64,000 bases of DNA from Coriobacterium glomerans PW2 (lineage in GTDB: Bacteria > Actinomycetota > Coriobacteriia > Coriobacteriales > Coriobacteriaceae), in NCBI RefSeq assembly GCF_000195315.1, contig NC_015389.1:1240001-1304000 (forward strand). Reading direction: 5' to 3'. The position numbers and the translations under genes were made by a program. Under the pieces are notes generated by a model. The model saw nothing but the letters and a program-made list of their open reading frames with translations, did not search any database and was not told the origin of the DNA. Shown here piece after piece: positions 28,545 to 46,631 of the stretch (position 1 is its first letter; each line of letters starts with the position of its first letter).

Positions 28545-29837
28545 TCAGATGCGAAGCGATCTCGCGTCTCTGTCCGCAGAGCTTGCGGGTGTTCGACGAA
28601 ATGAAGCGAGACCTCTATCAGATTCTCCCAAGTGCTCTATGACGCTGCTATAGGCAACGCCCGCACCACTCAGGAACACCTGCCGACTACCGATATCGCT
28701 TAACGATGCCCGCCGTCCGGTGCGCTCGAACGCGTCATGCAGTTGCTCATTCAAAAGCTCGAGCAGAACGCTGCCGGCGGCTGCGCCGAAATATAGATAG
28801 ACCTGCGTGAGATCGAGCAGATTCATATAGTCTATGATCCGTCCGCCGAGGATGCGCATCTTTTCTCGATACAGGCCGACGACGATTTCATTGTTCGATA
28901 CGAGCTGGTCGTCAATTACATGTTGAGTGAGCTTTGAGAGATCTCCTCCCAGAGCTTTGAATAGCTTCGGAAATCTCAACGCGGACCAGAACGGACAAAG
29001 CTCGTCGCGGACATATTCAAGAGCGAAGATGTCCTCCAGACAGACCGGCGCACGACGAGATCGATCGTTCTTTAAACCTTCGCCGACCATCGAGCTGCCG
29101 ATCTCTCCTGCCAAACCGTGCTCGCCGCGATACAGCTCGCGGTCCAGCACGATTGCACTGCCGATCCCGGGACCGACCTTCACGAAGAGAAACGACGACG
29201 CGCTCCGGTCGAAAAAGCTCGTCTGAGCCTCGGCCAGAGCGCAGACGTTGTTGGAAACGGTGACCGGTATCGACAGAACGCGCATGAGCAGCTCGATCAT
29301 CCGCTGTTTCGTCTCGAACATCGAAGGCATCGGCAACCCTCGAGCACGGAAGTAGTACTCTCGCCCCACCATTCCGATCCCGCACTGCACGAGATCATCG
29401 CGGGTCAGGCCCGTCTTGCGCAGCATAGTGCTCAGCAGACTCGAAATCTTGCGCACGAGCTTCGGTGCACTGCCAGCATCGAGTTCGCGCAGGTCGAATG
29501 CAAACGAACGCTTGATCACGGGCCTGCCCTTGAAGGTGACGATGCCAAGAGACACGAGATCCATCTCGATGTCGATACCGAGAAGATACGAAAAGGTCTC
29601 GTCGATGTCGATGAGCACCTCCCGAGGACCCGCGTGGCGCTTCCGCGAGATGACGGGGCCCACCTCATGCAGCAGCCCCGCTTCGATCATACCGTTGGTC
29701 AGCTGCGTTATCGAAGCTTGAGTGAGGCTGAGCGCTTCAGCGATCCGTTTGCGCGACATCGCTTGCCTCGCCTGAATAAGCTGCATGATTCTGATTTCAT
29801 TCTCGCGCTTTGCTCGATGCTTTGAGTTCACAATCAT
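28545..29837 (-). CDS. ROK-family transcriptional regulator, probable controller of the sulfoquinovose module
   Basis: About 430 residues. An N-terminal winged helix (MSRKRIAEALSLTQASITQLTNGMIEAGLLHEVG, about 27-60) precedes a ROK sugar-kinase-like domain (LGIDIEMDLVSLGIV, VGPGIGSAIVLDRELYRGEHGLAGEIGSS). The phosphate-binding DxGxT motif and the CxCGxxGCxE zinc motif of typical ROK proteins are both degenerate; only VCLED remains near 268. It is therefore a regulator, not a kinase. It is divergent from the GH31 gene, with 320 bp between them holding AT-rich inverted repeats. ATG 29837 follows AAGG; an upstream in-frame start at 29912 is less likely. Confidence 0.88.
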   Translation of the reverse strand: MIVNSKHRAKRENEIRIMQLIQARQAMSRKRIAEALSLTQASITQLTNGMIEAGLLHEVGPVISRKRHAGPREVLIDIDETFSYLLGIDIEMDLVSLGIVTFKGRPVIKRSFAFDLRELDAGSAPKLVRKISSLLSTMLRKTGLTRDDLVQCGIGMVGREYYFRARGLPMPSMFETKQRMIELLMRVLSIPVTVSNNVCALAEAQTSFFDRSASSFLFVKVGPGIGSAIVLDRELYRGEHGLAGEIGSSMVGEGLKNDRSRRAPVCLEDIFALEYVRDELCPFWSALRFPKLFKALGGDLSKLTQHVIDDQLVSNNEIVVGLYREKMRILGGRIIDYMNLLDLTQVYLYFGAAAGSVLLELLNEQLHDAFERTGRRASLSDIGSRQVFLSGAGVAYSSVIEHLGESDRGLASFRRTPASSADRDARSLRI

Positions 29838-30157
29838 GCCTGTACCTTGGCTCCTCGTCTGAGATCGCGGGCTGCTCGGCGCGCGATCTCGCTGATTGAT
29901 AAATATGAGCATTATCGCAGCTGTAAGATGGTCCCGTCAATCAAATGGAACTCCAAGGGAGCATGCGACCATACCGTTCGCGGGGCCTTTCGGCCCGGTC
30001 GCACAAAGCGCGCTTTACTGCTTCCGATCAGAAAGCTACGCTCGATCTATATCAGTTAATTAATTTAACTATTTAAGAAGGGGGTTGCGCGTTACACGGC
30101 ACGATGCGAAATCGCAGATCAAACGCACCTGGCGTCGGATTCAAGGAGGATCCGTTT
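29838..30157. promoter_or_regulatory. Control region between the ROK regulator and the sulfoquinovosidase
   Basis: 320 bp. It holds a perfect 9-bp inverted repeat GAGATCGCG / CGCGATCTC (29861-29869, 29882-29890) in the regulator leader. GATAA/TTATC (29898-29902, 29912-29916) lies near the regulator promoter. The AT-rich repeat at 30054-30076 is listed separately. Both divergent promoters must lie here, but no clean -35/-10 pair was found. Confidence 0.5.
30054..30076 (+). promoter_or_regulatory. AT-rich candidate ROK operator upstream of the GH31 gene
   Basis: The inverted repeat GTTAA-N5-TTAAC (30055-30069) sits in an unusually AT-rich run within a GC-rich region. A related run, sharing AGTTAATTA and TTTAA blocks, lies before the transaldolase gene at 32297. 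ROK regulators typically bind AT-rich palindromes. Confidence 0.5.
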
Positions 30158-32188
30158 ATGGAAATCAGGCACAAAACCCATATCCTGAAGATCACCGACC
30201 AAAAGATCACCTATGACGATCGCTGCCTGATGAGCGGCATCGATCAGACACCCTTCTGCTACCTGGGTCATGGCGACGCGGACATCACCATGTACCGCGG
30301 CAACTTCGATATAGTCGATGATGTCATCGAGAGACTTCCCCTGACACCGATCGATCACGAGATGCACGAAACGACGCTGACGCTCATCATGGGATATCAG
30401 GGCGCGCCATATGCGACCTGCATGTTCGAACTGTCTCAAAACGGCGATCTGAGTTTGCGCGTCGAGACGACCGACGCGAGATGGAACAGACTCTGGCTTC
30501 GCCTTGACGCGGAGCCCGACGAGCACGTATTCGGCTGCGGCGAGCAGCTCTCCTATTTTGATCTTCGCGGGCATCACTTTCCGCTTTGGACATCTGAACC
30601 CGGCGTCGGAAGAAACAAGACGACGCTGACCACATTCTACGCGGACTCGCGCGATCACGCCGGTGGCGACTGGTGGACGACCAATTATCCCGAGCCGACC
30701 TTCATCTCGAGCAAGCGGTATCTCTGTCACGCCGACACCTTCGTCTACGCCGACTTTGATTTTCGTCCCAAAGGCTACCACGAGCTGCAATTCTGGGGGA
30801 TCCCGAAACGGATCATCTTCAGAACGGCGACGAGCTATCAAGAGCTTCTGCGGAAGCTGACCGATATGCTCGGGCGGCAGCAACCGCTTCCGAGCTGGAC
30901 ATCAGAGGGGTTCATCGCCGGCGTCCAAGGTGGGTCCGAACGTGTGGATGAGCTGATTTCGAGGTTCAGACGAGCTCAGGTTCCGCTAGCCGGTGTGTGG
31001 TGCCAAGATTGGGAGGGCGTGCGGATCACGGATTTTGGCAAACGCCTCTTTTGGAACTGGTCCGCTAACGACCAGCTCTATCCTGAACTCAAAAGCAAGA
31101 TCGCCGCGTGGAGACGCGAGGGCATCCGATTCCTCGGATACATCAATCCCTACATCGCCGCCGATGCATCGCAGTTCCCCCAGGCCGAGCAGAGCGGCTT
31201 CTTCGCGCGACGCAAGGACGGCACCACCTATCTGGTCGACTTCGGTGGTTTTGATTGCGGCGTGATCGATTTCACGAATCCGGCGGCTTACGATTGGTTC
31301 AAGAACTTGATCAAGACGAATCTGATAGATGTCGGCCTCTCGGGATGGATGGCGGATTTCGGCGAGTATCTGCCGACTGACGTCGTGCTCTTCGATGGAT
31401 CCAATCCGCTGGAGCGCCACAATGAGTGGCCGGCGCTGTGGGCGCGCTGCAACCGCGACGCGATCCATGAGGCCGGGCGCGAGCGCGAGATCATCTTTTT
31501 CATGCGTGCCGGAACGAGCGGAACTCAGGGATTATGTCCTCTGCTCTGGGCGGGCGACCAGAGTGTCAACTGGAGCTTGGATGACGGACTCGCCTCGGTC
31601 ATACCCGCTGCCCTGTCCGCCGGCATGACCGGCTGCGGACTGACTCATTCCGATATCGGCGGATATACATCTCGATATGGCAACATCCGCACCCGCGAGC
31701 TGTTCATGCGATGGGCGGAGATGGCTGCATTCACCCCCTTTATGCGTTCTCATGAGGGGAACCGTCCGGATACCAACTTCCAAGTCTACGACGATCCCGA
31801 CGCACTGAACCATCTCGCTCGCTATGTTCACGTGTTCCGCTTGCTGGCGAGCTATCGGACTCATGTCATGAGCGAGGCCGCAGAGCTCGGCCTACCTGCG
31901 CAGCGGGCGTTGTTCCTGCACTACGAGGATGACGAGATCACCTACTCGCTCAAGTACGAGTACCTTCTCGGGCAGGATCTGCTCATCGCACCGGTTTACG
32001 AGCAGGCGCAGACGACTCGACGGCTCTATCTACCGGAAGATACGTGGGTCCATCTGTGGAGCGGAGCGCGTTACGGCGGTGGCTGGCATAGCATCGAGGC
32101 ACCTCTGGGGCAGATACCCGTGTTCTTCCGGGCCAGCTCCCCGTTCGTAGAACTCTTTGATGGCCTCAAGTCCGCCGTGCTCGATTGA
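30158..32188 (+). CDS. sftG: GH31 sulfoquinovosidase
   Basis: 676 residues. It hydrolyses sulfoquinovosyl glycerol or sulfolipid glycosides to free sulfoquinovose (SQ). It has the YihQ-type signature residues: Gln283 (CQDWEG), Arg296 and Trp299 (KRLFWNW) and Tyr503 (GGYTS). These match E. coli YihQ Q288, R301, W304 and Y508, which bind the sulfonate, at a constant offset of five. The nucleophile is Asp400 (WMADFGEYLP) and the acid/base Asp467 (WAGDQSV). AAGGAGG lies 9 nt before ATG 30158. No signal peptide is present, so glycosides are cleaved after import. It is first in a nine-kilobase run of SQ genes. The symbol follows the sulfo-TAL naming. Confidence 0.9.
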   Translation: MEIRHKTHILKITDQKITYDDRCLMSGIDQTPFCYLGHGDADITMYRGNFDIVDDVIERLPLTPIDHEMHETTLTLIMGYQGAPYATCMFELSQNGDLSLRVETTDARWNRLWLRLDAEPDEHVFGCGEQLSYFDLRGHHFPLWTSEPGVGRNKTTLTTFYADSRDHAGGDWWTTNYPEPTFISSKRYLCHADTFVYADFDFRPKGYHELQFWGIPKRIIFRTATSYQELLRKLTDMLGRQQPLPSWTSEGFIAGVQGGSERVDELISRFRRAQVPLAGVWCQDWEGVRITDFGKRLFWNWSANDQLYPELKSKIAAWRREGIRFLGYINPYIAADASQFPQAEQSGFFARRKDGTTYLVDFGGFDCGVIDFTNPAAYDWFKNLIKTNLIDVGLSGWMADFGEYLPTDVVLFDGSNPLERHNEWPALWARCNRDAIHEAGREREIIFFMRAGTSGTQGLCPLLWAGDQSVNWSLDDGLASVIPAALSAGMTGCGLTHSDIGGYTSRYGNIRTRELFMRWAEMAAFTPFMRSHEGNRPDTNFQVYDDPDALNHLARYVHVFRLLASYRTHVMSEAAELGLPAQRALFLHYEDDEITYSLKYEYLLGQDLLIAPVYEQAQTTRRLYLPEDTWVHLWSGARYGGGWHSIEAPLGQIPVFFRASSPFVELFDGLKSAVLD

Positions 32189-33006: not shown

Positions 33007-33675
33007 ATGCTGCAACAGATTCGGGAATTGAATCCCAAACTTCAGATCTTCTCCGTATCAGATCCGACGTTCCGCGATTACGGGCAGGTGCTCGCCGATA
33101 TAGACATGGCGGCACCGTTGAAGGCGCTCGCAAAAAAGCCGCTGCCCGCCGAGGGCAACATCTACGTGGCCTCAGACAACGAACTTGAGAGCACCGATGC
33201 GGCCCTTTGGCTGCGTTATGAGATCTTCGGCGGTATGCCGGTCGAGGTCGGCTACTGCAACGGGCACAGCAGCCAGCTCAACTGCCTCGAGTGGCACAAC
33301 GCTCCTGAGGTCAACATCGCCACCGATGATATTGTCTTGTTCCTCGGACGCACACCCGAGCTTCAGGGCGACCGCTATCGCGTCGAGGATATCAAGGCCT
33401 TCTTCGTACCTCGGGGTACCTGCATCTCGATATTCGGAACGACAATGCATTTCGCACCCTGCAGGACGTCCGAAGACGGCTTCAGATGCCTGGTGATGCT
33501 ACTTGCAGATGTCAACACCGATCTGCCTGAGCACCCGTACGCCGAAGACCGCGCCCGGCCGCGGACACTGTTCAAATATGGCAAATGGCTGATCGCGCAT
33601 CCTGACAACGAACGATTCGTCGCGTGCGGCGCCTACCCGGGCATCGTGGGCGAGAACCTGACCATAGCCATCTGA
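33007..33675 (+). CDS. DUF4867 family protein of the sulfoquinovose cluster
   Basis: 222 residues. The pattern (ASDNELE, FGGMPVEVGYCNGHSSQLNCLEWH, EVNIATDDIVLFLG, FFVPRGTCISIFGTTMHFAPC) matches DUF4867, a small cupin-like family with no proven reaction. Conserved His and Glu residues in LEWHNAPE and MHFAP could bind a metal. Members recur beside transaldolase-type SQ genes, where the protein has been called SftF. A mutarotase or accessory isomerase role is possible but only inference. AGGAGG overlaps the preceding stop codon, and spacing to both neighbours is tight (8 and 12 bp). Confidence 0.8.
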   Translation: MLQQIRELNPKLQIFSVSDPTFRDYGQVLADIDMAAPLKALAKKPLPAEGNIYVASDNELESTDAALWLRYEIFGGMPVEVGYCNGHSSQLNCLEWHNAPEVNIATDDIVLFLGRTPELQGDRYRVEDIKAFFVPRGTCISIFGTTMHFAPCRTSEDGFRCLVMLLADVNTDLPEHPYAEDRARPRTLFKYGKWLIAHPDNERFVACGAYPGIVGENLTIAI

Positions 33676-33687
33676 GAGGAACTCATT

Positions 33688-35019
33688 ATGACAATACGCG
33701 CACTCTATCTGCCGGCGGCACGGCTCACATTCGATGTCGATCTGGCGCAGCGCATGTTCGAGCAGAGCAGACGGCTACTCGGAGATCTACCCGGCATTGA
33801 GCTCACTGCTCCCGATACGCTGCTGAGCGATCCTGCTGAGCTGGCGGATTTCGTCCGGGGCCACCGTTCGGCCACCGATGCGATCATCTTCCAGGCGATC
33901 ACGTTTGTCGACGGTGAATTCATCGGCACGGCGATCGATCTTATCGACGCGCCGGTCATCATCTGGGGCCTGCGCGAACCGGGTATCGGCGGTCGCCTCA
34001 GACTGAACAGCCTGACCGGTGTCATGGCGGCGGCGAACACGCTGAAGTTCAACGGCCGCACCTTCCTGCACCTGATAGGCAACCCCGATCAGCAGCGCAC
34101 CGAGCTCGATCTGTCCCGCAGTCTGGCCGTGCTCGGCCTGGCATGGCGATTCAAGACGACCACGGTCGGTGTGGTCGGAACCTATCCGAGCGGATTCTTC
34201 TTCTCGGATACCAATAACCAGGCGCTCCATGAGGCGTTCGGCATCTCGACCAAGAAGTACGAACTCGCGGACTGGTTCAGCGAGGCCGAGCAGGTGAGCG
34301 AGCAGGAGTGCGCGCAAGAGCTGCGCTTCGCCCGCGAGCACATCGTCGGCCTCGAGGCGAACGACGACACCGTCGGTCGTCTCGCCCGATTCACCACCGT
34401 CGCTCGACGCCATATCGAGGCTGACCATCTGAGCACGATCGCGATGCGCTGCTGGCCGGACTTCTTCGAGCGGATGCATACGGCTCCGTGCGGAATCTTC
34501 TCCCAGCTGACCGAAGAGGGCTTTCCGACGACCTGCGAGGCCGATATCCATGGCTCGCTGTCCATGTTCGCCCTGCGCGAGCTCACCGGAGGTGCACCGT
34601 ATCTGGGTGACATCGTCAGCATCATCGAGGAGGAGAACGCGATCGTGATGTGGCATTGCGGATTCGCCCCGTATTCGCTCGCCGCCGACAGCGAGGGCGC
34701 CCGAGCGGGCCTGCATCCGAACCGCAAGATCGGAGTCGCCATGGACTTCGGACTGAAGCCCGGCGGCGTGACCCTGCTCCGGATCAGCTACACGCCGCAG
34801 GGCTACCGTCTGATCGCGACCTGCGGCACCGCGCTGGACAAACCGAACGCCTACACGGGGACCTCGGTCGTGGTCAAGCTGAGACCAGCCGTGACCAACT
34901 TCATCGATCAGGCGATCACCGAGGGCTACGAGCCGCACTTCGCACTCGCCTACGGAGATGTCACCGATCAGATCGAGCAGCTCGGACAGGTCCTGCATAT
35001 CGAGACGACGATTCTGTAG
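33688..35019 (+). CDS. sftI: Sulfoquinovose isomerase (L-fucose isomerase-like)
   Basis: 443 residues with the two-domain fold of fucose/arabinose isomerase-like proteins: an N-terminal Rossmann-like part (AIIFQAITFVDGEFIGTAIDLID, about 67-90) and a C-terminal metal-binding part. VVGTYPSGFFFSD (about 165), AMRCWPDFFERMHTAPCG (about 252) and DIHGSLSMFALRELTGG (about 288) supply the Glu/Asp/His-type metal site region. Proposed reaction: SQ to 6-deoxy-6-sulfofructose. It is unrelated to the E. coli YihS isomerase, which is the distinction expected of the sulfo-TAL pathway. GAGGAA precedes ATG 33688. Confidence 0.82.
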   Translation: MTIRALYLPAARLTFDVDLAQRMFEQSRRLLGDLPGIELTAPDTLLSDPAELADFVRGHRSATDAIIFQAITFVDGEFIGTAIDLIDAPVIIWGLREPGIGGRLRLNSLTGVMAAANTLKFNGRTFLHLIGNPDQQRTELDLSRSLAVLGLAWRFKTTTVGVVGTYPSGFFFSDTNNQALHEAFGISTKKYELADWFSEAEQVSEQECAQELRFAREHIVGLEANDDTVGRLARFTTVARRHIEADHLSTIAMRCWPDFFERMHTAPCGIFSQLTEEGFPTTCEADIHGSLSMFALRELTGGAPYLGDIVSIIEEENAIVMWHCGFAPYSLAADSEGARAGLHPNRKIGVAMDFGLKPGGVTLLRISYTPQGYRLIATCGTALDKPNAYTGTSVVVKLRPAVTNFIDQAITEGYEPHFALAYGDVTDQIEQLGQVLHIETTIL

Positions 35020-35030
35020 AGGAGCGCCAT

Positions 35031-35909
35031 ATGAATATCGGATTCATCGGGCTGGGCATCATGGGTTCTGCGATGTCGGCCAATCTCATCAGGAAGTCCG
35101 GACACGAGGTCTTCGTCTTCGACTTCGATGCCGACAAGGTCGCCCAGGCGTCCTCGATCGGCGGGCGCGCCTGCGACAGCAGCCATGAGGTCGTCGAACG
35201 CGCCGACGTGGTCTTCACGAGCGTCCCCAAAGCCGAGCACGTCCGCGCCATCCATGAAAGCGTCTACGATGCGATCAGGCCGGGCCAGATCTTCATCGAT
35301 ATGAGCACCATCGCGCCGGCGGACTCGATCTCGCTGGCCGAGGCGCTCGGTGAGCGCGGCGCGATCTTTCTCGACGTGCCGGTAGTGAAATCCAAGCAGC
35401 AGGCGATCGATGGAACGCTCGGCATCTACGTGGGCGGACCGCGCGAAGCATACGAACAGGTGAAGCCGCTGCTTGAGATCCTGGGTCAGGATATCGTCTA
35501 CATGGGCGGCAACGGCCAGGGCATCACCATGAAGATTCTGCACAACATGCTCGTCGGCGAGATCCAAAACGGCGTCAACGAGATGATGGCGCTCGCTGAG
35601 CGCTGCGGCATCGACTGGCAGCTGTTCGTGAAGGCGATCTCCATCGGCGGTGCCAGCAACTTCTATCTGCAGACCAAGGCGGAGGCGATCGGCACGCGGC
35701 AGTTCGCCACGGCCTTCTCGGTGGACAACATGAGCAAGGACACCGGGATCGCGCAGGATCTCGCTGCCGAGAAGGGACTCGACCTTCCGGGCGTCGCCTT
35801 GGTGCGCGGCATCTATCAGCAAGCGGTCGAGGAGCATCTCGGTGGCGAGGACTTCTCAGCCTCCTTCAAGATCGTCGAGGAGAACGCGTTGGCTCATCCG
35901 TCGCTCTGA
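35031..35909 (+). CDS. 3-sulfolactaldehyde reductase (beta-hydroxyacid dehydrogenase family, YihU-like)
   Basis: 292 residues. The N-terminal NAD(P)-binding fold begins IGFIGLGIMGSAMSANLI. The substrate loop is DVPVVKSKQQAIDGTLGIYVGG. Carboxylate-specific family members usually carry DAPVSGG here; the Lys120-Ser121-Lys122 substitution suggests a sulfonate. The catalytic lysine is Lys168 (MKILHNMLVGEIQNGVNEMM). Proposed reaction: reduction of SLA to 2,3-dihydroxypropane-1-sulfonate (DHPS), which recycles NADH in an anaerobe. Oxidation to sulfolactate would instead need an aldehyde dehydrogenase, and none is present. AGAGGAG precedes ATG 35031. Confidence 0.85.
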   Translation: MNIGFIGLGIMGSAMSANLIRKSGHEVFVFDFDADKVAQASSIGGRACDSSHEVVERADVVFTSVPKAEHVRAIHESVYDAIRPGQIFIDMSTIAPADSISLAEALGERGAIFLDVPVVKSKQQAIDGTLGIYVGGPREAYEQVKPLLEILGQDIVYMGGNGQGITMKILHNMLVGEIQNGVNEMMALAERCGIDWQLFVKAISIGGASNFYLQTKAEAIGTRQFATAFSVDNMSKDTGIAQDLAAEKGLDLPGVALVRGIYQQAVEEHLGGEDFSASFKIVEENALAHPSL

Positions 35910-35959: not shown

Positions 35960-36706
35960 ATGAGCACCTCTGTCGCGATGCTGGCCGCCCTCTTTCTCGT
36001 GGTGTTCGCATCAAACGTCATCCAGGGCATCACGGGTTTCGCCGGAACGCTCATCGCGCTGCCATTCGCGATTCTGCTCGTCGATCTGGAGACCGCCAAG
36101 CAGGTGCTCAACTTCCTCGGACTTGTCGCCAGCATCGCCATCCTGATCAAAGATCACCGATCGATCAGCTGGAGCGGCGTCAGGAAGATCCTCACGTGGA
36201 TGATCACGGGGCTCATCATCGGCATCGCATCCTATGAGGTCGCGCCCCGAGCCGTCCTCATGGTCTGCCTTCCGCTGTTCGTGATCGCGATAGCCGTGCG
36301 CGGACTCATCAAGGTGATCGGGCATGAACAGCTCAGGACGCGCGGTCCCGCTCCTGCGCGGGACGCGGCCTGCCTTGTGGCTGCCGGGATCGTTCACGGC
36401 CTGTTCGTCTCAGGAGGCCCTCTGCTGGTCGCGTATGCGACCGACAGGCTGCCGGAGAAGCAGCGGTTTCGCGCGACGCTGTCAGCCTGCTGGATCGCTC
36501 TCAACTCGATCATTCTTGTCCAAGCGGCGCTCTGCGCGAAGCTCACCGCTCCGATGATGGGCTACATGGCGTTCTCACTTCTTCCCATGGCAGCCGGCGT
36601 GGCTGTCGGAGGGTCTCTGCTCAAGCGGATGGACCAGCGCACGTTCATGCTGATCTCCTATCTGCTGCTGCTGGCATCCGGTGCGAGCCTGCTGATCTCC
36701 ATCTGA
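35960..36706 (+). CDS. TauE/SafE-family exporter, probably for DHPS
   Basis: 248 residues with eight predicted membrane helices in two similar halves. The halves carry the family motif GxxGF(A/S)G near residue 22 (GITGFAGTLIALPFAI) and near 148 (VHGLFVSGGPLLVAYA). The family exports organosulfonates, sulfite and related anions. Placed right after the SLA reductase, it is the obvious candidate to expel the C3-sulfonate end product; direction and substrate are inferred. The start is preceded by GAGAAGGA at a rather long distance of about 13 nt. Confidence 0.85.
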   Translation: MSTSVAMLAALFLVVFASNVIQGITGFAGTLIALPFAILLVDLETAKQVLNFLGLVASIAILIKDHRSISWSGVRKILTWMITGLIIGIASYEVAPRAVLMVCLPLFVIAIAVRGLIKVIGHEQLRTRGPAPARDAACLVAAGIVHGLFVSGGPLLVAYATDRLPEKQRFRATLSACWIALNSIILVQAALCAKLTAPMMGYMAFSLLPMAAGVAVGGSLLKRMDQRTFMLISYLLLLASGASLLISI

Positions 36707-36780: not shown

Positions 36781-38235
36781 ATGCAGGCAACCATTTCAAT
36801 CGAGAAGGAGCGCAGCAAAGAGGAATTCCCCGCTGTGCTGTCGCTCAGGGAGAAGCTGGCCTACGGCCTGGGCGATGTGGGAAGCAACTTCTTGTTCGAC
36901 ACCGGCCAGCTTTTCCTGCTGAAATACTTCACCGACGTGGTCGGTTTGAACCCGATGGTCGCCGGCGGCGTCTTTCTGGTCGCAAAGATCTGGGACGCCT
37001 TCGCCGACGTCGGGGTCGGAACGTGGATCGACAACCGGCGCAGAATCGGGCCGCGCGGTCGGTTCCGTCCGTTCATGCTCTGGGCTGCGCTGCCTCTGGG
37101 GATACTCATGGTCTCAAACTTCATGATCCCGAATGTCTCGATCACCGCGCAGGAGATCTGGGCCTATGTGAGCTACATCGTGTTCGGAACCGTCTACAGC
37201 ATCTCCAATGTCGCGTTCGGCTCCATGCAGCCGGCGATGACGCGCAACAGCGTCGAGCGCTCGCAGCTCTCCGCATGGCGCAACATGGGGTCGAACATGG
37301 GCAACCTGCTCACGACGGTCGGATTCATCCCCATCGTGCTGCTGCTGCCGACCCAGAGGATCGGCTATACCGTCGCAGCGGTCGTCTTCGCGATACTCGG
37401 GGTGGCCTGCCAGCTGATCTCCTATCGCAACATCAAGGAGAACTACCATGACGAGGCGCGCGACAACGCCGCTGCCGAGGTCCATAGCGTTGGTCGCAAG
37501 GAATTGCTGAAAGACGTCCTTCGGTCCTACAGATCGGTCTTTCGCAACAAGCCGCTACTGGTGCTGTGTCTGGCGAACCTGTTCACCTTCTCGGCATACA
37601 ATGTTAAGCTGGCGGTTCAGTTCTACTTCGCGCAGTATGTCCTCCACGATATCACGATCGTATCTTACATGACCTTTGTCACCATGGGATTCGCCATCTT
37701 GGGCTCGGCGATGATCCCGGTGTTCAGCAGGAGGCTTGGCAAGAAGCAGACCTATATCATGGCCTGCATGATCTGGGCCATCTCAGACGGCATAGGGTAT
37801 TTCCTTACGAACTCGGGATGGACGTTCGCCTTCTTCACAAGCGTATCCTACTTCGGAAACGGTCTGATCACAGGACTCAACTGGGCGCTCATCTCCGATG
37901 TCGTCGACTACGGAGAATGGAAGACTCACGTTCGCTCAGAGGGAATCGTCTACTCGTCCTACACCTATTTTCGCAAGCTGTCGCTCGCAGCAGCCGGATC
38001 GATTCCCGGTTTCATCCTGGCCTTCATCGGATACGTTCCCAACCATGAGCAGACGGCGTTCGCGCTCGAAGGCATCCGCGGTCTCGTCTTTCTCTATCCC
38101 GTCGCAGGTGCGCTGCTCACGATGGTTCTCATGTGGTTCTATCCCATCACCGAGCGGAAGTACACCGATATCATGCTCGATCTTCAGCAGCGACGCAACA
38201 AAAGCCAGCTGGACCGAGCCGATGAGAAGGCCTGA
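36781..38235 (+). CDS. GPH-family sugar:cation symporter (MFS), probable SQ/SQ-glycoside importer
   Basis: 484 residues with twelve predicted helices. Glycoside-pentoside-hexuronide signatures are visible: KLAYGLGDVGSNFLFD (about 24-39), AKIWDAFADVGVGTWIDNRRRIGPRGRFRPFMLW (about 68-100) and NWALISDVVDYGEWKT (about 366). E. coli uses GPH-family YihO and YihP near its SQ genes, so import of SQ or sulfoquinovosyl glycerol is the natural reading. AAAGG lies 10 nt before ATG 36781. It is the last gene of the module. Confidence 0.87.
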   Translation: MQATISIEKERSKEEFPAVLSLREKLAYGLGDVGSNFLFDTGQLFLLKYFTDVVGLNPMVAGGVFLVAKIWDAFADVGVGTWIDNRRRIGPRGRFRPFMLWAALPLGILMVSNFMIPNVSITAQEIWAYVSYIVFGTVYSISNVAFGSMQPAMTRNSVERSQLSAWRNMGSNMGNLLTTVGFIPIVLLLPTQRIGYTVAAVVFAILGVACQLISYRNIKENYHDEARDNAAAEVHSVGRKELLKDVLRSYRSVFRNKPLLVLCLANLFTFSAYNVKLAVQFYFAQYVLHDITIVSYMTFVTMGFAILGSAMIPVFSRRLGKKQTYIMACMIWAISDGIGYFLTNSGWTFAFFTSVSYFGNGLITGLNWALISDVVDYGEWKTHVRSEGIVYSSYTYFRKLSLAAAGSIPGFILAFIGYVPNHEQTAFALEGIRGLVFLYPVAGALLTMVLMWFYPITERKYTDIMLDLQQRRNKSQLDRADEKA

Positions 38236-38505: not shown

Positions 38506-38581
38506 TGGTAGCCCGTACCAGATTCGAACTGGTGATCTCCGCCTTGAGAGGGCGGCGCCCTAACCGCTAGACGAACGGGCC
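38506..38581 (-). tRNA. tRNA-Glu (CTC), duplicate copy lacking its promoter-proximal partner
   Basis: A cloverleaf read on the minus strand: acceptor GGCCCGT / ACGGGCT, anticodon loop CTCTCAA (anticodon CTC), T-loop TTCGAAT, discriminator A and encoded CCA (complement of 38506-38508). Structure is intact. However, the promoter and the upstream tRNA-Gln of the ancestral locus are missing, so expression is doubtful. Confidence 0.9.
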
Positions 38582-39705: not shown

Positions 39706-39863
39706 TGAAAGCTCTGGTAGCCCGTACCAGATTTGAACTGGTGATCTCCGCCTTGAGAGGGCGGCGTCCTAACCGCTAGACGAACGGGCCGACTATGTGT
39801 GGACAGCGCACTGGCTGGGATGGAGGGAGTCGAACCCCCATTGACGGAACCAGAATCCGCTGT
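39677..39863. repeat. 187-bp direct repeat, copy 2 (intact tRNA locus)
   Basis: This is the partner of 38468-38654, displaced by 1,209 bp. Sequence continues past the repeat into the complete tRNA-Gln and its promoter, so this is the probable parental copy. An 11-base C homopolymer (39653-39663) lies 13 bp before it. Confidence 0.95.
39715..39790 (-). tRNA. tRNA-Glu (CTC)
   Basis: Same cloverleaf as the copy at 38506, with anticodon CTC and encoded CCA. Differences are one D-stem/variable position and T-loop TTCAAAT in place of TTCGAAT. It is co-transcribed with tRNA-Gln 21 bp upstream. Confidence 0.95.
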
Positions 39864-41915: not shown

Positions 41916-44015
41916 TCACCGTGACCGGCGCGACCTTACGCGCGACAGGGCGATCAAGCCGACGCCGACCGCGAGCAGGACAGCCGAGACGCTCCCCGCG
42001 ACCCAGTACGCATCTCCGGTCGAGGGCATCTTGGCCTTGCCGCGTGCGACTCCGCCATTTGATTTTGCAGCGGATCGACCGCTGGAGCCGGATCCGGCAT
42101 GAACGTTGACGCCGTTTTGGCCCGCTTGACCCTGCGTGCCGTCGCGGCCATCCCGACCGGCTTGACCCTGCGTGCCGTCGCGGCCATCGCGACCGGCTTG
42201 GCCCTGCGTGCCGTCGCTCCCATCGCGACCGTCCTTGCCGCTCTTGCCGTCTCGGCCGTCCTTGCCGTCGCGGCCGTCATGGCCGTCATGGCCGTCGCCG
42301 AGGATGCCGGCTGTCGCGTTCGCGCTGGCGTGCCCCTCGGACAGGACGTAGTTTCTGGACCGCGGGCCGTCCTGCCTGAGACTGACGGTGACGACGACGC
42401 TCTTGTCCTGGCCGGGCTCGGCGTCGGCGAAGGAGCCGGTCGCCTCGTAGTCCTCGCCGGGCCAGAGATGCTCGCCGCCGACGAGGCCTGTGAACTCGAC
42501 GCCGGAGACCGAGGCGTCGGTCTTGCCGTCGTAGGCCTTGGGCGCCGCGCTCGCCGAGGCGACCTCGAGCGGCCTGCGATCGATGGTGAGCTTCAGACTC
42601 ACCGGTCCTTGCGGGATGAGGGCGAGCTTGCCGGTGCCGTCCGCGAAGGGCCGCTCGGTGACCTCGACCTCGTAGGCGCCGGCGTCTTCGGGCAGCCCGT
42701 CGGTCCAGGGGCCGCCCGCGCCTTGCGGCCGGTAGCGGAACGTCGCGTGATCGGTGAGCTCAGCGGGGTCGACCGCGACGTCGGCCCTGGCGCCGAGCGC
42801 GATCGCGTCGGCTCCGAGCGCGACGGCGTCGTAGACGGCCGGAACGTCCTGCGCCGCCGTGAGCGTGTAGGGGTCGTTCTTGAGCACGCGCACCGGGTAG
42901 TCGGCCTTCGAGTCGGGCTCCTCGTTGGCGATCGCGATGTAGCCGAGATCGGGCGCCGTGTTGTAGACAGCGCCCCGGTCGCCGTCGTCGCCGGGGGTCC
43001 CGCTCAGCGTTCCGGCACCGAAGAAGCCGCCGGTGATCGAGAGCTTTCCGCCGGCGTCGCGGATCGGCGTTGTGGGTAGCCGGTCTGAGGCGGCCGTTAT
43101 GTAGCCGCCGGTGATGGAGACATCGCCGGGTGTGTAGACCCCCCCGTAAAACGACGAGTAAAACCCAATCGCGGCCCCTGCGAAGCTACCGCCCGCCGTG
43201 GCGCTCACCGTGCCGCCCTCGATGACGATGTCGCCATATTGTCCACTGGCATAATAGCCTCCGTTGCCGATGGCGCTAATGTTGTAGGGCGTGCCGCCCA
43301 TGCCGTATACGGAGTCGGTCGTGGCGGTCACATCGCCGCCGCTGATCCGTATGCCGCCAAAGTAACCCAGACTGCTGCCGATCGCGGCCCCGGCGCCTTG
43401 CGCCCGCGCGTTGATCGTACCCCCCTCGATCACGATGAAGCCGCCGTAGTTGGCGCCGATGCCCGCCCCGTTCTGTTGGTGATATGAGCTGTTATCGGTG
43501 CTCTCGACGTCGAGCTCGCCGGTGCCCCCGATCGTGAGGGTCCCCTTGTTTCCAACGGAGATCGCGTCGCTCTGCGTGGTGCGCAACCTGTTCACGGAGC
43601 CGGGGGCGAGCGTCAGCCTCGTGCTCCCGCTCTTGGCGGACCCAAGGACTCCTATCGCCAAGATGTTGTAGCTGGACCTAGAAGCGCTGGTGTCGGTGAA
43701 ATCCGCGTTCACGCCGTCGAGCGTCACATTCGCGTCGACGCCGTCCGCGACGGCGATCCGATCGCTCGCCGTCTGCTCCACGCCGTCGGCCATCGAGATC
43801 GTGACCTCGGTGCCCGTCAGGATGGTGAGGAGGTGCCTACTCGCATCATAGGTCCAATCGACGCCCTGCGCGCCGCCATCGACGCTGTAGTCGCCCGCCG
43901 TCACGGGTTCGGCGAGCGCTGCGCGCCCAGGCGCGAAAACGAGCGCCGCCAAGACAAGCGCGAACATGAGCAGCGCTCGACGTGGGGCCTTTCTTCGCAT
44001 GAGTCGTTCTTTCAT
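41916..44015 (-). CDS. Sortase-anchored surface protein with beta-helix, YDG and collagen-like repeats (paralog A)
   Basis: 699 residues. A signal peptide (RRALLMFALVLAALVFAPGRAALA) is followed by a repetitive right-handed beta-helix region (about 90-340, repeats like GGIRISGGDVTATT and YGDIVIEGGTVSA). A YDG-type domain follows (PKAYDGKTDASVSGVEFTGLVGGEHL, about 490-560), then a collagen-like Gly-X-Y tract (about 572-635). The cell-wall sorting signal is MPSTG, a membrane helix and RVRSRRSR. It is exported and fixed to peptidoglycan by a sortase encoded elsewhere. AAAGGGGA precedes ATG 44015. Its paralog lies directly upstream; function is unknown, perhaps adhesion. Confidence 0.85.
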   Translation of the reverse strand: MKERLMRRKAPRRALLMFALVLAALVFAPGRAALAEPVTAGDYSVDGGAQGVDWTYDASRHLLTILTGTEVTISMADGVEQTASDRIAVADGVDANVTLDGVNADFTDTSASRSSYNILAIGVLGSAKSGSTRLTLAPGSVNRLRTTQSDAISVGNKGTLTIGGTGELDVESTDNSSYHQQNGAGIGANYGGFIVIEGGTINARAQGAGAAIGSSLGYFGGIRISGGDVTATTDSVYGMGGTPYNISAIGNGGYYASGQYGDIVIEGGTVSATAGGSFAGAAIGFYSSFYGGVYTPGDVSITGGYITAASDRLPTTPIRDAGGKLSITGGFFGAGTLSGTPGDDGDRGAVYNTAPDLGYIAIANEEPDSKADYPVRVLKNDPYTLTAAQDVPAVYDAVALGADAIALGARADVAVDPAELTDHATFRYRPQGAGGPWTDGLPEDAGAYEVEVTERPFADGTGKLALIPQGPVSLKLTIDRRPLEVASASAAPKAYDGKTDASVSGVEFTGLVGGEHLWPGEDYEATGSFADAEPGQDKSVVVTVSLRQDGPRSRNYVLSEGHASANATAGILGDGHDGHDGRDGKDGRDGKSGKDGRDGSDGTQGQAGRDGRDGTQGQAGRDGRDGTQGQAGQNGVNVHAGSGSSGRSAAKSNGGVARGKAKMPSTGDAYWVAGSVSAVLLAVGVGLIALSRVRSRRSR
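42112..42299 (-). repeat. Collagen-like Gly-X-Y repeat tract of paralog A
   Basis: The coding sequence repeats GRDGRDGTQGQA units three times after a GHDGRDGKDG-type block, without interruption of the Gly-X-Y period. The nucleotide repeats of 36 bp are nearly identical, so copy number could change by slippage or recombination. Confidence 0.85.
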
Positions 44016-44397: not shown

Positions 44398-46437
44398 TCA
44401 CTTGCATCGAAGAGCCTTCCCGCGTGAGAGCACGATGAAGCAGGAACCGGCGACGAGCAGAGCGGTAGACGCTCCACCGGCGATCCAGGCGGCGTCGCCG
44501 GTGGAAGGCATCTTGGAGCCACGTACCTTTGCATCGCCCTTCCTGGCGACCGCATCTCCTCGCGCGCCGCTCGCGGAGGTACCGTTCTTGCCGTTTTCGC
44601 CTTTCTGGCCGATGGTGCCCGCGCCGTTCTTGCCGTCGCGCCCATCTCGACCATCATGGCCGTTGCCGTCGCGGCCGTCGCGGCCGTCCTTGCCGTCGCG
44701 GCCGTCATGGCCGTCATGGCCGTCGCCGAGGATGCCGGCCGTCGCGTTCGCGCTGGCGTGCCCCTCGGACAGGATGTAGTTTCTGGACCGCGGGCCGTCC
44801 TGCCTGAGGCTGACGGTGACGACGACGTTCTTGTCCTGGCCGGGCTCGGCGTCGGCGAAGGAGCCGGTCGCCTCGTAGTCCTCGCCGGGCCAGAGATGCT
44901 CGCCGCCGACGAGGCCTGTGAACTCGACGCCGGAGACCGAGGCGTCGGTCTTGCCGTCGTAGGCCTTGGGCGCCGCGCTCGCCGAGGCGACCTCGAGCGG
45001 CCTGCGATCGATGGTGACCTCCGCGATCGCCGCTCCCCGCGGGATCAGGGCGAGCTTGCCGGTGCCGTCCGCGAAGGGCCGCTCGGTGACCTCGACCTCG
45101 TAGGCGCCGGCGTCTTCGGGCAGCCCGTCGGTCCAGGGGCCGCCCGTGCCCTGCGACCGGTGGCGGAACGTCGCGTGATCGGTGAGCTCGGCGGGGTCGA
45201 CCGCGACGTCGGCCCTGGCGCCGAGCGCGATCGCTTCGGGGTCGAGCGCCCCAGCGTCGTAGACGGCCGGGCCGTCCTGCGCGGCGGACAGGTCGTACGG
45301 ATCGTTCTTGAGCACGCGCACCGGATAGGCGGCCTTCGAGTCGGGCTCCTCGTCGGCGATCACGGTGTATCCCGGATCGGGCTCCGCGCCGTAGACCGCG
45401 CCCCGATCGCCGTCGTCGCCGGGGGTCACGCTCAGCGTTCCGGCACCGAAGAAGCCGCCGGTGATCGAGAGCTTCCCGCCGGCGTCGAGGATCGGCGTGG
45501 CGGGCAACCCGTTTGAGGCGGCCGTTATGTAGCCGCCGGTGATGGAGACATCGCCGGGTGTGAAGCTCCCCCCGTAATACGCCGGGTAGTACCCGATCGC
45601 AGCGCCAGACTGGGAACCACCTGCCTTGGCGCTCACCGTGCCGCCCTCGATGACGATGTCGCCATATTGTGGATTTGAACCGGCAAAATAGCCTCCGTTG
45701 CCGATGGCGCTGGCGTTGTAGGAATTGCCGCTTGTGTAGAAATCGGAGTCGGTCGTGGCGGTCACATCGCCGCCGCTGATCCGTATGCCGCCGAGGTAAC
45801 CCTGACTCGAGCCGATTGCGGCCCCGGCGCCTTGCGCCCGCGCGTTGATCGTACCCCCCTCGATCACGATGAAGCCGCCGTAGTTGGCGCCGATGCCCGA
45901 ACCGTTCGGATAGTGATATGAACTGTAATCGGTGCTCTCGACATCGAGCTCCCCGGTGCCCCCGATCGTGAGGGTCCCCTTGTTTCCAACGGAGATCGCG
46001 TCGGACATCGTGGTGCGCAATCTGTTCACGGAGCCGGCGGCCAGCGTCAGCCTCGTGCCCCCGCTCGTGGGTGACGCTGGGCTTCCGATCGTCAAGATGT
46101 TGTAGCTGGACTTAGAAGCGTTGATGTCGGTGAAATCCGCGTTCACGCCGTCGAGCGTCACATTCGCGTCGACGCCGTCCGCGACGGCGATCCGATCGCT
46201 CGCCGTCTGCTCCACGCCGTCGGCCATCGAGATCGTGACCTCGGTGCCCGTCAGGATGGTGAGGAGGTGCTGATTCGCATCGTAGGACCAGTCGCCGCCA
46301 TCGACGCTGTAGTCGCCCGCCGTCACGGGTTCGGCGAGCGCTGCGCGCCCAGGCGCGAAAACGAGCGCCGCCAAGACAAGCGCGAACATGAGCAGCGCTC
46401 GACGTGGGGCCTTTCTTCGCATGAGTCGTTCTTTCAT
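44398..46437 (-). CDS. Sortase-anchored surface protein with beta-helix, YDG and collagen-like repeats (paralog B)
   Basis: 679 residues with the same order as paralog A. The signal peptide is identical. The beta-helix region is very similar, with local differences (for example DFYTSGNSYNASAIGNGG). The YDG domain is the same. The collagen-like tract is shorter (GDGHDGHDGRDGKDGRDGRD...KNG) and lacks the TQGQA units. It ends MPSTG, helix, RGKALRCK. GGAGAGGCGGA precedes ATG 46437; an in-frame start at 46455 is less likely because the first 16 residues from 46437 equal those of paralog A. A recent tandem duplication followed by divergence explains the pair. Confidence 0.85.
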   Translation of the reverse strand: MKERLMRRKAPRRALLMFALVLAALVFAPGRAALAEPVTAGDYSVDGGDWSYDANQHLLTILTGTEVTISMADGVEQTASDRIAVADGVDANVTLDGVNADFTDINASKSSYNILTIGSPASPTSGGTRLTLAAGSVNRLRTTMSDAISVGNKGTLTIGGTGELDVESTDYSSYHYPNGSGIGANYGGFIVIEGGTINARAQGAGAAIGSSQGYLGGIRISGGDVTATTDSDFYTSGNSYNASAIGNGGYFAGSNPQYGDIVIEGGTVSAKAGGSQSGAAIGYYPAYYGGSFTPGDVSITGGYITAASNGLPATPILDAGGKLSITGGFFGAGTLSVTPGDDGDRGAVYGAEPDPGYTVIADEEPDSKAAYPVRVLKNDPYDLSAAQDGPAVYDAGALDPEAIALGARADVAVDPAELTDHATFRHRSQGTGGPWTDGLPEDAGAYEVEVTERPFADGTGKLALIPRGAAIAEVTIDRRPLEVASASAAPKAYDGKTDASVSGVEFTGLVGGEHLWPGEDYEATGSFADAEPGQDKNVVVTVSLRQDGPRSRNYILSEGHASANATAGILGDGHDGHDGRDGKDGRDGRDGNGHDGRDGRDGKNGAGTIGQKGENGKNGTSASGARGDAVARKGDAKVRGSKMPSTGDAAWIAGGASTALLVAGSCFIVLSRGKALRCK

Positions 46438-46631
46438 ACTGTTCCGCCTCTCCAATGAAAGGTCGCTTGAGATGTATGCTTCACGACGTTATCTACCCCC
46501 CTAAAGCGGGTGGCGCATGGCAGACCACGCAAATCTATATGCTAAACGCAATTCAATGAAACCGGCAATGCCGTTAGGGCTCCTCCAAACAGGCACGTGA
46601 TGCAAGGGAGGGCCACGTGAAGCTCGACGGA

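Follow-up and report, generated by a model that had tools for sequence, protein, structure and literature searches.

A DUF4867 cupin protein in a presumed sulfoquinovose operon of Coriobacterium glomerans as a candidate sugar ring opener accessory to the isomerase

The window, a 64,000-nucleotide stretch of the C. glomerans PW2 genome, holds a run of plus-strand genes that, going by its gene content, is presumably a sulfo-TAL (sulfo-SFT) sulfoquinovose (SQ) operon. It opens with a GH31 glycosidase at 30104..32188 (alternative start possible at 30158), the presumed sulfoquinovosidase, which scores 906 bits against a cut-off of 553 with PRK10426, a model we take to be of the YihQ type. There follow a small transaldolase (TAL_FSA, PF00923; 32333..32998), presumed to act on sulfofructose (SF); the DUF4867 gene studied here (33007..33675); a FucI-fold, SftI/SqvD-like isomerase (33688..35019; NF048012 517 bits, cut-off 700), the presumed SQ isomerase; and a HIBADH-like reductase (35031..35909, with the ATG at 35031 chosen as start and the frame scanned from 35028). 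The last, a presumed sulfolactaldehyde (SLA) reductase, scores 169 bits against a cut-off of 348 with PRK15461, a sulfolactaldehyde reductase model. Transport is represented by a TauE/SafE family exporter (35960..36706), presumably for sulfonates, and a GPH-family sugar:cation symporter (36781..38235; TIGR00792 433 bits, over cut-off), the presumed importer of SQ or SQ glycosides; a ROK-family regulator is divergent (28545..29912, minus strand). All four sulfo-TAL gene kinds (SQase, SQ isomerase, SF transaldolase, SLA reductase) are present, and the sequence-only reading had named the cluster an SQ operon; the gene content and the GH31 score over its cut-off bear this out, but the isomerase and reductase matches lie under their NCBIfam cut-offs, so we infer the operon's substrate. 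The aldose epimerase family PF01263 had no match at E <= 0.001 in the DUF4867 protein or its operon, and the genome's three PF01263 genes all lie outside the 64-kb window. Just downstream of the cluster are two tRNA-Glu(ctc) genes (38506-38581 and 39715-39790), a possible island boundary, and further on two adjacent large minus-strand ORFs (41916-44015 and 44398-46455) share a signal-like N-terminus, likely a tandem duplication of a secreted protein.

The DUF4867 gene runs from an ATG at 33007, with AGGAGG upstream, to a stop at 33675 and encodes a 222-aa SftX/SqvB-like protein. Its tight packing, described earlier from the sequence, was measured as gaps of 8 bp to the transaldolase and 12 bp to the isomerase, all three genes being on the plus strand. 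Pfam includes a model for the cupin phosphoglucose isomerase family; at E <= 0.001 the protein matched neither a phosphoglucose isomerase nor an AllA model, nor any family other than PF16161 (DUF4867), whose match (222.9 bits, cut-off 28.7, model positions 1-201 of 201) is, judging by this score, not due to chance. The cupin-like His/Glu pattern seen in the sequence-only reading also holds up: E95, H97, E101 and H148 align with Glu97, His99, Glu103 and His150, the Fe ligands of Bacillus megaterium SqvB (9GYY), and are identical, together with K193, in 130 of 130 DUF4867 rows, many of them drawn from few genera; H198 is identical in 129. They come from 164 DUF4867 hits, from which duplicates and sequences shorter than 170 aa were removed, leaving 80 from the best 80 of 584 loci, 29 from relatives of the window genome, and 19 others; the window protein and 9GYY complete the set.

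The predicted fold agrees with this assignment. An AlphaFold model (pLDDT 96.1, from a 51-row alignment) superposed on 9GYY with Z 35.1, at 1.3 Å over 219 residues with 37% identity in the structural alignment. Ureidoglycolate lyases came next (Z 10.2-12.3, 13-14% identity to 1XSQ and 1YQC), AllA (1XSQ) giving Z 10.5 and 3.5 Å over 132 residues, the same fold. Many cupins reached Z values of about 8-9, including archaeal cupin phosphoglucose isomerases at 8.4-8.5; Foldseek ranked these phosphoglucose isomerases next after 9GYY and 9GYZ (E about 1e-5, TM-score about 0.35).

That the protein lacks an assigned reaction, as the earlier reading remarked, is a real gap, already published as the SftX/SqvB question. 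A 2022 paper, which also regards SQ as a glucose-6-phosphate mimic, proposed on the model of AllA that SqvB opens the pyranose ring of SQ and so serves SqvD, a FucI-like isomerase (PMC9594981). In a 2025 report, B. megaterium SqvB was solved as 9GYY and 9GYZ with Fe on the four residues given above, and soaking with SF produced density on the metal that could be assigned neither to SF nor to HEPES (PMC11968277). The same report describes for SftX no detectable mutarotation of SQ or SF and no nanoDSF shift with 10 mM SQ or SF, and found no kinase activity; it suggests a role as mutarotase or ring isomerase in ketose metabolism (PMC11968277). A 2026 review still has “the mutarotase SqvB,” and a DUF4867-type “candidate SQ mutarotase” is reported as produced by an SQ-degrading Faecalicatena (PMC11659671); its identification as DUF4867 is our own reading, from 48% sequence identity to the candidate of sulfo-TAL strain SOS1. 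Literature searches on DUF4867, SqvB/mutarotase and SftX found no later solution of the function among the matches listed.

The printed assay deserves a closer reading. A 24-h incubation of Eubacterium rectale SftX with SQ, SF or SR, alongside standards, was followed, as printed, by heating at 80 C, drying, transfer to D2O and then EXSY (PMC11968277). If done as printed, SftX would have been heat-killed before exchange was measured, a design sensitive to stable conversion among SQ, SF and SR and blind to ring opening or mutarotation. With exchange measured on dead enzyme, the negative would weigh little against a ring opener and carry some weight against an isomerase.

A comparison is available within the same organism. 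The 2.1-Mb, one-contig genome has two DUF4867 matches, the second (L003:9534-10187; G000:C1:2012560-2013177, minus strand) being 35% identical to the window copy. XylB (544 bits, cut-off 380) is on one side of it, and on the other is a FucI-fold isomerase (PF02952, 86 bits); the operon further includes a GPH importer and an alpha-xylosidase of family GH31 (1212 bits, cut-off 606). XylA had no match anywhere in the window genome, so this FucI-fold enzyme is probably the operon's xylose isomerase. Common to both operons are a GH31 alpha-glycosidase, a GPH importer, DUF4867 and a FucI-fold isomerase, and both GH31 enzymes are expected to release an alpha-aldopyranose of gluco/xylo configuration; kinase, transaldolase and reductase are not the same in the two. 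This combination of a shared GH31-isomerase-DUF4867 set with differing later enzymes suggests a task of DUF4867 around the isomerase and away from SLA. Replacement of XylA by the DUF4867-linked isomerase was also considered as a general pattern and set aside; XylA was over cut-off in one of 197 relatives of the window genome, and, in a broader genome sample described below, in one of 14 genomes with DUF4867 (G418) and four of the 66 tested among 384 others. G464, at first taken for another genome that pairs an SQ with a xylose copy, was dropped, its SQ-side copy at L198 having an 8-residue loop and adjoining a GH3-like gene.

To see what accompanies DUF4867 elsewhere, we counted neighbors in the best 80 of 584 loci from a scan of named genomes with a pair of peptide patterns; the 9GYY form, LNGLE, is excluded by one of the pair, and the sample is biased. 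Among these best 80 of 584, a FucI-family isomerase lay within the locus in 64, in 58 of them as the immediate same-strand neighbor of DUF4867; an FGGY (XylB-type) kinase was in the locus in 58 and directly beside DUF4867 in 15; and a transaldolase was in the locus in 12. The 45 of them with at least 5 kb on both sides contained the isomerase in 36 cases and the kinase in 33, and the nine that lack the isomerase rule out any strict law that DUF4867 always shares an operon with a FucI-fold isomerase. Some loci without the FucI-family enzyme have LacAB, RpiB, RhaA or LuxS nearby, and aldose-ketose isomerases of unrelated folds are found near DUF4867 overall (the FucI fold, LacAB, RpiB with Rpe, and IolB). 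The RhaA case, recognized by eye, is in Clostridium oryzae, where DUF4867 lies upstream of what appear to be rhamnose genes for a kinase, an isomerase, an aldolase and a reductase (L106:10010-17620).

In 398 genomes from the phylum of the L055 genome, DUF4867 was over cut-off in 14, and all 14 had a FucI-family isomerase detectable with NF048012, each scoring below that model's cut-off, versus 88 of 384 other genomes (Fisher 2.6e-9, kinship ignored). Leaving out G418, a doubtful case in which DUF4867 matches at 37.7 bits in a frame containing a stop, gives 1.0e-8, again with kinship ignored. With PF02952, a weaker model, the isomerase was found in 15 of the 31 DUF4867 carriers among 197 relatives of the window genome, versus 25 of 166 others (Fisher 1.1e-4). 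Conversely, PF16161 had no match in seven of eight genomes with SftI-like scores of at least 440 bits, in four relatives that have the isomerase and XylB (G084, G117, G183 and G196), or in ten genomes of the sample with isomerase loci (L259-L264 and L268-L271); two isomerase-XylB loci of DUF4867-free relatives are L171 and L172. FucI-family isomerases thus also occur alone, and DUF4867 is accessory to them, as would be the catalyst of a reaction that runs by itself.

We also examined SftI-family loci without DUF4867 (L248-L251 and L253-L258), and found no transaldolase in those read. Nine of these ten, L255 being the exception, have a creatinase/M24-like protein of about 370 aa (L248:10742-11857, L249:8155-9270, L250:11002-12126, L251:6735-7850, L253:907-2022, L254:10808-11923, L256:13559-14755, L257:8644-9771 and L258:5918-7042), with a Pfam match over cut-off only for L257 of three scanned; possibly it is a functional substitute for DUF4867, or has a separate role. 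A further cluster (L252:7781-17197) is of SQ type, with GH31, a fused Dak1-Dak2 kinase, an iron alcohol dehydrogenase, an SLA-reductase-like gene, an SftI-like isomerase and, by eye, PFK-like and class II aldolase-like genes; perhaps it represents an SF aldolase route giving dihydroxyacetone.

Two classes of DUF4867 can be told apart by markers that we defined here after inspecting trees rather than took from the literature. The SqvB class, 13 of the 130 rows and including the window protein and 9GYY, has a 9-residue loop between H198 and G208, N9, and a residue other than Arg at 98. The 9-residue loop occurs in none of the other 117 rows, of which 115 have Arg98 and four have Asn9. In a tree of 91 rows, one per 85% identity group, the 13-row group with 9GYY had SH-aLRT 96; after removal of four long branches the value was 83 for the 11 rows left (87 rows). 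A tree constrained to unite the window copy with those of its own order was not rejected (p-AU 0.74) and was even more likely; loop length is firmer evidence for the class than the tree. A suggested anion-binding residue at 190 was dropped, since it is Met in 9GYY.

The classes differ in their surroundings. The other class, to which belong the second copy of the window genome and the loci having XylB and an isomerase of roughly 495 aa, is mostly found with a FucI-family isomerase and an FGGY kinase. SqvB-class copies lie near IolB in six loci (L036-L038, L042, L099 and L100), after lacA, lacB, a hexose kinase and lacD on a Carnobacterium plasmid, and downstream of rpe and rpiB and upstream of a GH1 gene on a Listeria seeligeri plasmid; three (L040, L089 and L097) are outside any recognized sugar operon. 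Where the pathway can be read, with substrates that we presume from family knowledge, the SqvB-class sugars bear a terminal anion (sulfonate, phosphate or carboxylate); the rpe-rpiB pair next to the Listeria copy may point to a pentose phosphate, for which reason “C6 anion” was widened to “terminal anion.” Four of the six IolB loci have a FucI-family isomerase (L036, L037, L042 and L100) and five contain an FGGY kinase, so DUF4867 may encounter a different sugar in them. Known sugar ring openers include the GalM and RbsD/FucU kinds, and a GalM-type gene is directly beside DUF4867 in four loci (L037, L097, L099 and L100), while the Carnobacterium plasmid has an annotated aldose 1-epimerase after DUF4867 on the other strand; such neighbors accompany five of the 13 SqvB-class rows. 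A plain substitution for GalM is therefore not the whole story; this adjacency fits another function or a different step, either ring opening in place of anomer exchange or action on the ketose.

A further neighbor is LuxS, whose reaction starts with an aldose-ketose isomerization of a ribose hemiacetal. In a related genus (g3), 20 of 23 DUF4867-bearing genomes have luxS within 4 kb on the same contig (L163:10240-10728 and L165:8544-9032, for example), 17 with 164-187 bp and three with about 3.7 kb between model matches; in the remaining three the two genes are on different contigs. In an Oscillospiraceae locus luxS follows DUF4867, the opposite order to g3 (L097:10757-11281). In one genome the luxS match immediately preceding DUF4867 is split into two parts separated by about 1.4 kb, which may be due to an insertion (G046:C1:860286-862187). 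The neighborhood is compatible with ring opening, but its conservation, mainly in one genus, counts as a single event; LuxS as a specific partner is weakened by this and by the presence of luxS in 109 of the 197 relatives. LuxS has zero occurrences in the main text of PMC11968277.

We suggest that the window protein is an SftX/SqvB-class DUF4867 acting as a metal-dependent lactol ring opener (a mutarotase or “pyranase”) accessory to the isomerase, a reading to which we give somewhat better than even chances; the GalM-type neighbors of five SqvB-class rows lowered this estimate slightly. The anomeric oxygens of sulfoquinovose, and perhaps also the sulfofructose furanose ring, would be bound by a divalent metal on E95, H97, E101 and H148. 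An acid-base pair, for which the invariant K193 is one candidate, would take a proton from O1 and deliver it to the ring oxygen, and the ring would open to the open-chain aldehyde needed by the FucI-fold SQ isomerase. Alpha-SQ from the GH31 sulfoquinovosidase would then be spared spontaneous opening; uncatalyzed mutarotation of SQ has a half-life of about 300 min (PMC9594981). As both reports argue, the logic of the bond has a precedent in AllA, which splits a hemiaminal much as a hemiacetal would be opened (PMC9594981; PMC11968277). In terms of net chemistry, the earlier remark that no additional enzyme is required in the pathway is correct; it leaves ring opening out of account. Its suggestion of a mutarotase is the best supported of the three it made, and had already been published as a hypothesis (PMC9594981; PMC11968277).

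More broadly, DUF4867 might be a general cupin “lactolase” for isomerases of unrelated folds, an extension that we offer tentatively and expect to fail more readily than it holds. It would comprise a terminal-anion class, for sulfoquinovose, galactose-6-phosphate, another sugar phosphate and perhaps 5-deoxyglucuronate, and a pentose class that perhaps extends to S-ribosylhomocysteine by way of LuxS; one copy of each class would then be present in the window genome.

Next after aldose ring opening comes a role on the ketose side, in which the protein would open the furanose of sulfofructose (or xylulose) to the keto form for transaldolase, transketolase or kinase. FGGY kinase-DUF4867 fusions, reported under the heading “ketose metabolism” (PMC11968277), speak for it, as do seven loci (L202, L203, L205, L206 and L208-L210) in which DUF4867 shares its strand with XylB and a transporter while the isomerase is divergent, two in which it directly precedes a transaldolase (L113 and L207), and the DUF4867-free SftI-family loci, in which no transaldolase was found and several of which have PFK-like and class II aldolase-like genes by eye. 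Yet in the best 80 of 584 loci the direct neighbor is far more often the isomerase than the kinase, with a transaldolase in few loci, and sulfo-EMP2-type clusters, which have a kinase and no transaldolase, also carry DUF4867 (23 of 127; PMC11968277); we regard the ketose role as unlikely, at about one chance in a handful.

Less probable still is that the protein is itself a cupin aldose-ketose isomerase or epimerase, serving either as a reserve SQ isomerase or in the repair of a side epimer. The Foldseek ranking of archaeal cupin phosphoglucose isomerases and the likeness of SQ to glucose-6-phosphate (PMC9594981) would suit such an enzyme, but ureidoglycolate lyases score higher in structural alignment, Z values near 8.5 are common among cupins, the SQ operon already has an isomerase, and the only Pfam match is PF16161. 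The alternative isomerase put forward in the sequence-only reading also loses ground to the 24 h end-point assay, which could have detected a conversion of SQ, SF or SR and for which no new species is mentioned (PMC11968277).

A non-enzymatic part, as sugar sensor, scaffold or stabilizer for the isomerase, would explain why isomerase genes often adjoin DUF4867 in the best 80 of 584 loci, and why the literature has so far reported no activity. We consider it distinctly improbable, given four metal ligands and a lysine kept in every one of the 130 rows, and ligand density on the metal after the SF soak (PMC11968277), which together point to catalysis or, at the least, to ligand binding on the metal. 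Protection against SLA, the third earlier suggestion, draws on the gene's place in an operon that probably makes SLA, and we reject it on genomic context as barely credible, since the second copy is in a xylose-type operon and most of the best 80 of 584 loci are isomerase/FGGY kinase operons.

The ring-opener claim is not new; what is added here is the pair of copies in one genome, the markers of the two classes, the co-occurrence counts and a critical reading of the printed assay. Sulfoquinovose is produced on a very large scale, and this conserved sulfo-TAL gene has so far resisted assignment in print. The paralog pair, the class markers and the assay critique make a known question more directly testable, and if lactol opening were true of the whole family it would annotate a gene of many gut bacteria.

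Compared with known systems, the window protein is closest to SftX of E. rectale and SqvB of B. megaterium, with which it shares Pfam family and kind of operon, and with SqvB (9GYY), the protein compared here rather than E. rectale SftX, also fold, metal ligands and class markers. It differs from those systems in being accompanied, in its genome, by a DUF4867 paralog from the other class, and its host is perhaps outside the sulfo-TAL phyla (Firmicutes, Thermotogae and Chloroflexi) named in the 2026 review. With AllA it has in common a cupin barrel, a metal enzyme's character (Ni in AllA; PMC3793230) and related bond chemistry; it differs in sequence, at 13-14% identity and with a Pfam match to PF16161 alone, and urea chemistry is not expected of it. 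Cupin phosphoglucose isomerases of P. furiosus and T. litoralis resemble it as metal cupins with a C6-anionic hexose substrate, but their structural similarity is weaker than that of AllA, and no isomerization is reported for SftX (PMC11968277). YihR (PF01263) resembles it in proposed task, the equilibration of SQ anomers beside an SQ isomerase, and belongs to another family, one with no match in the window operon.
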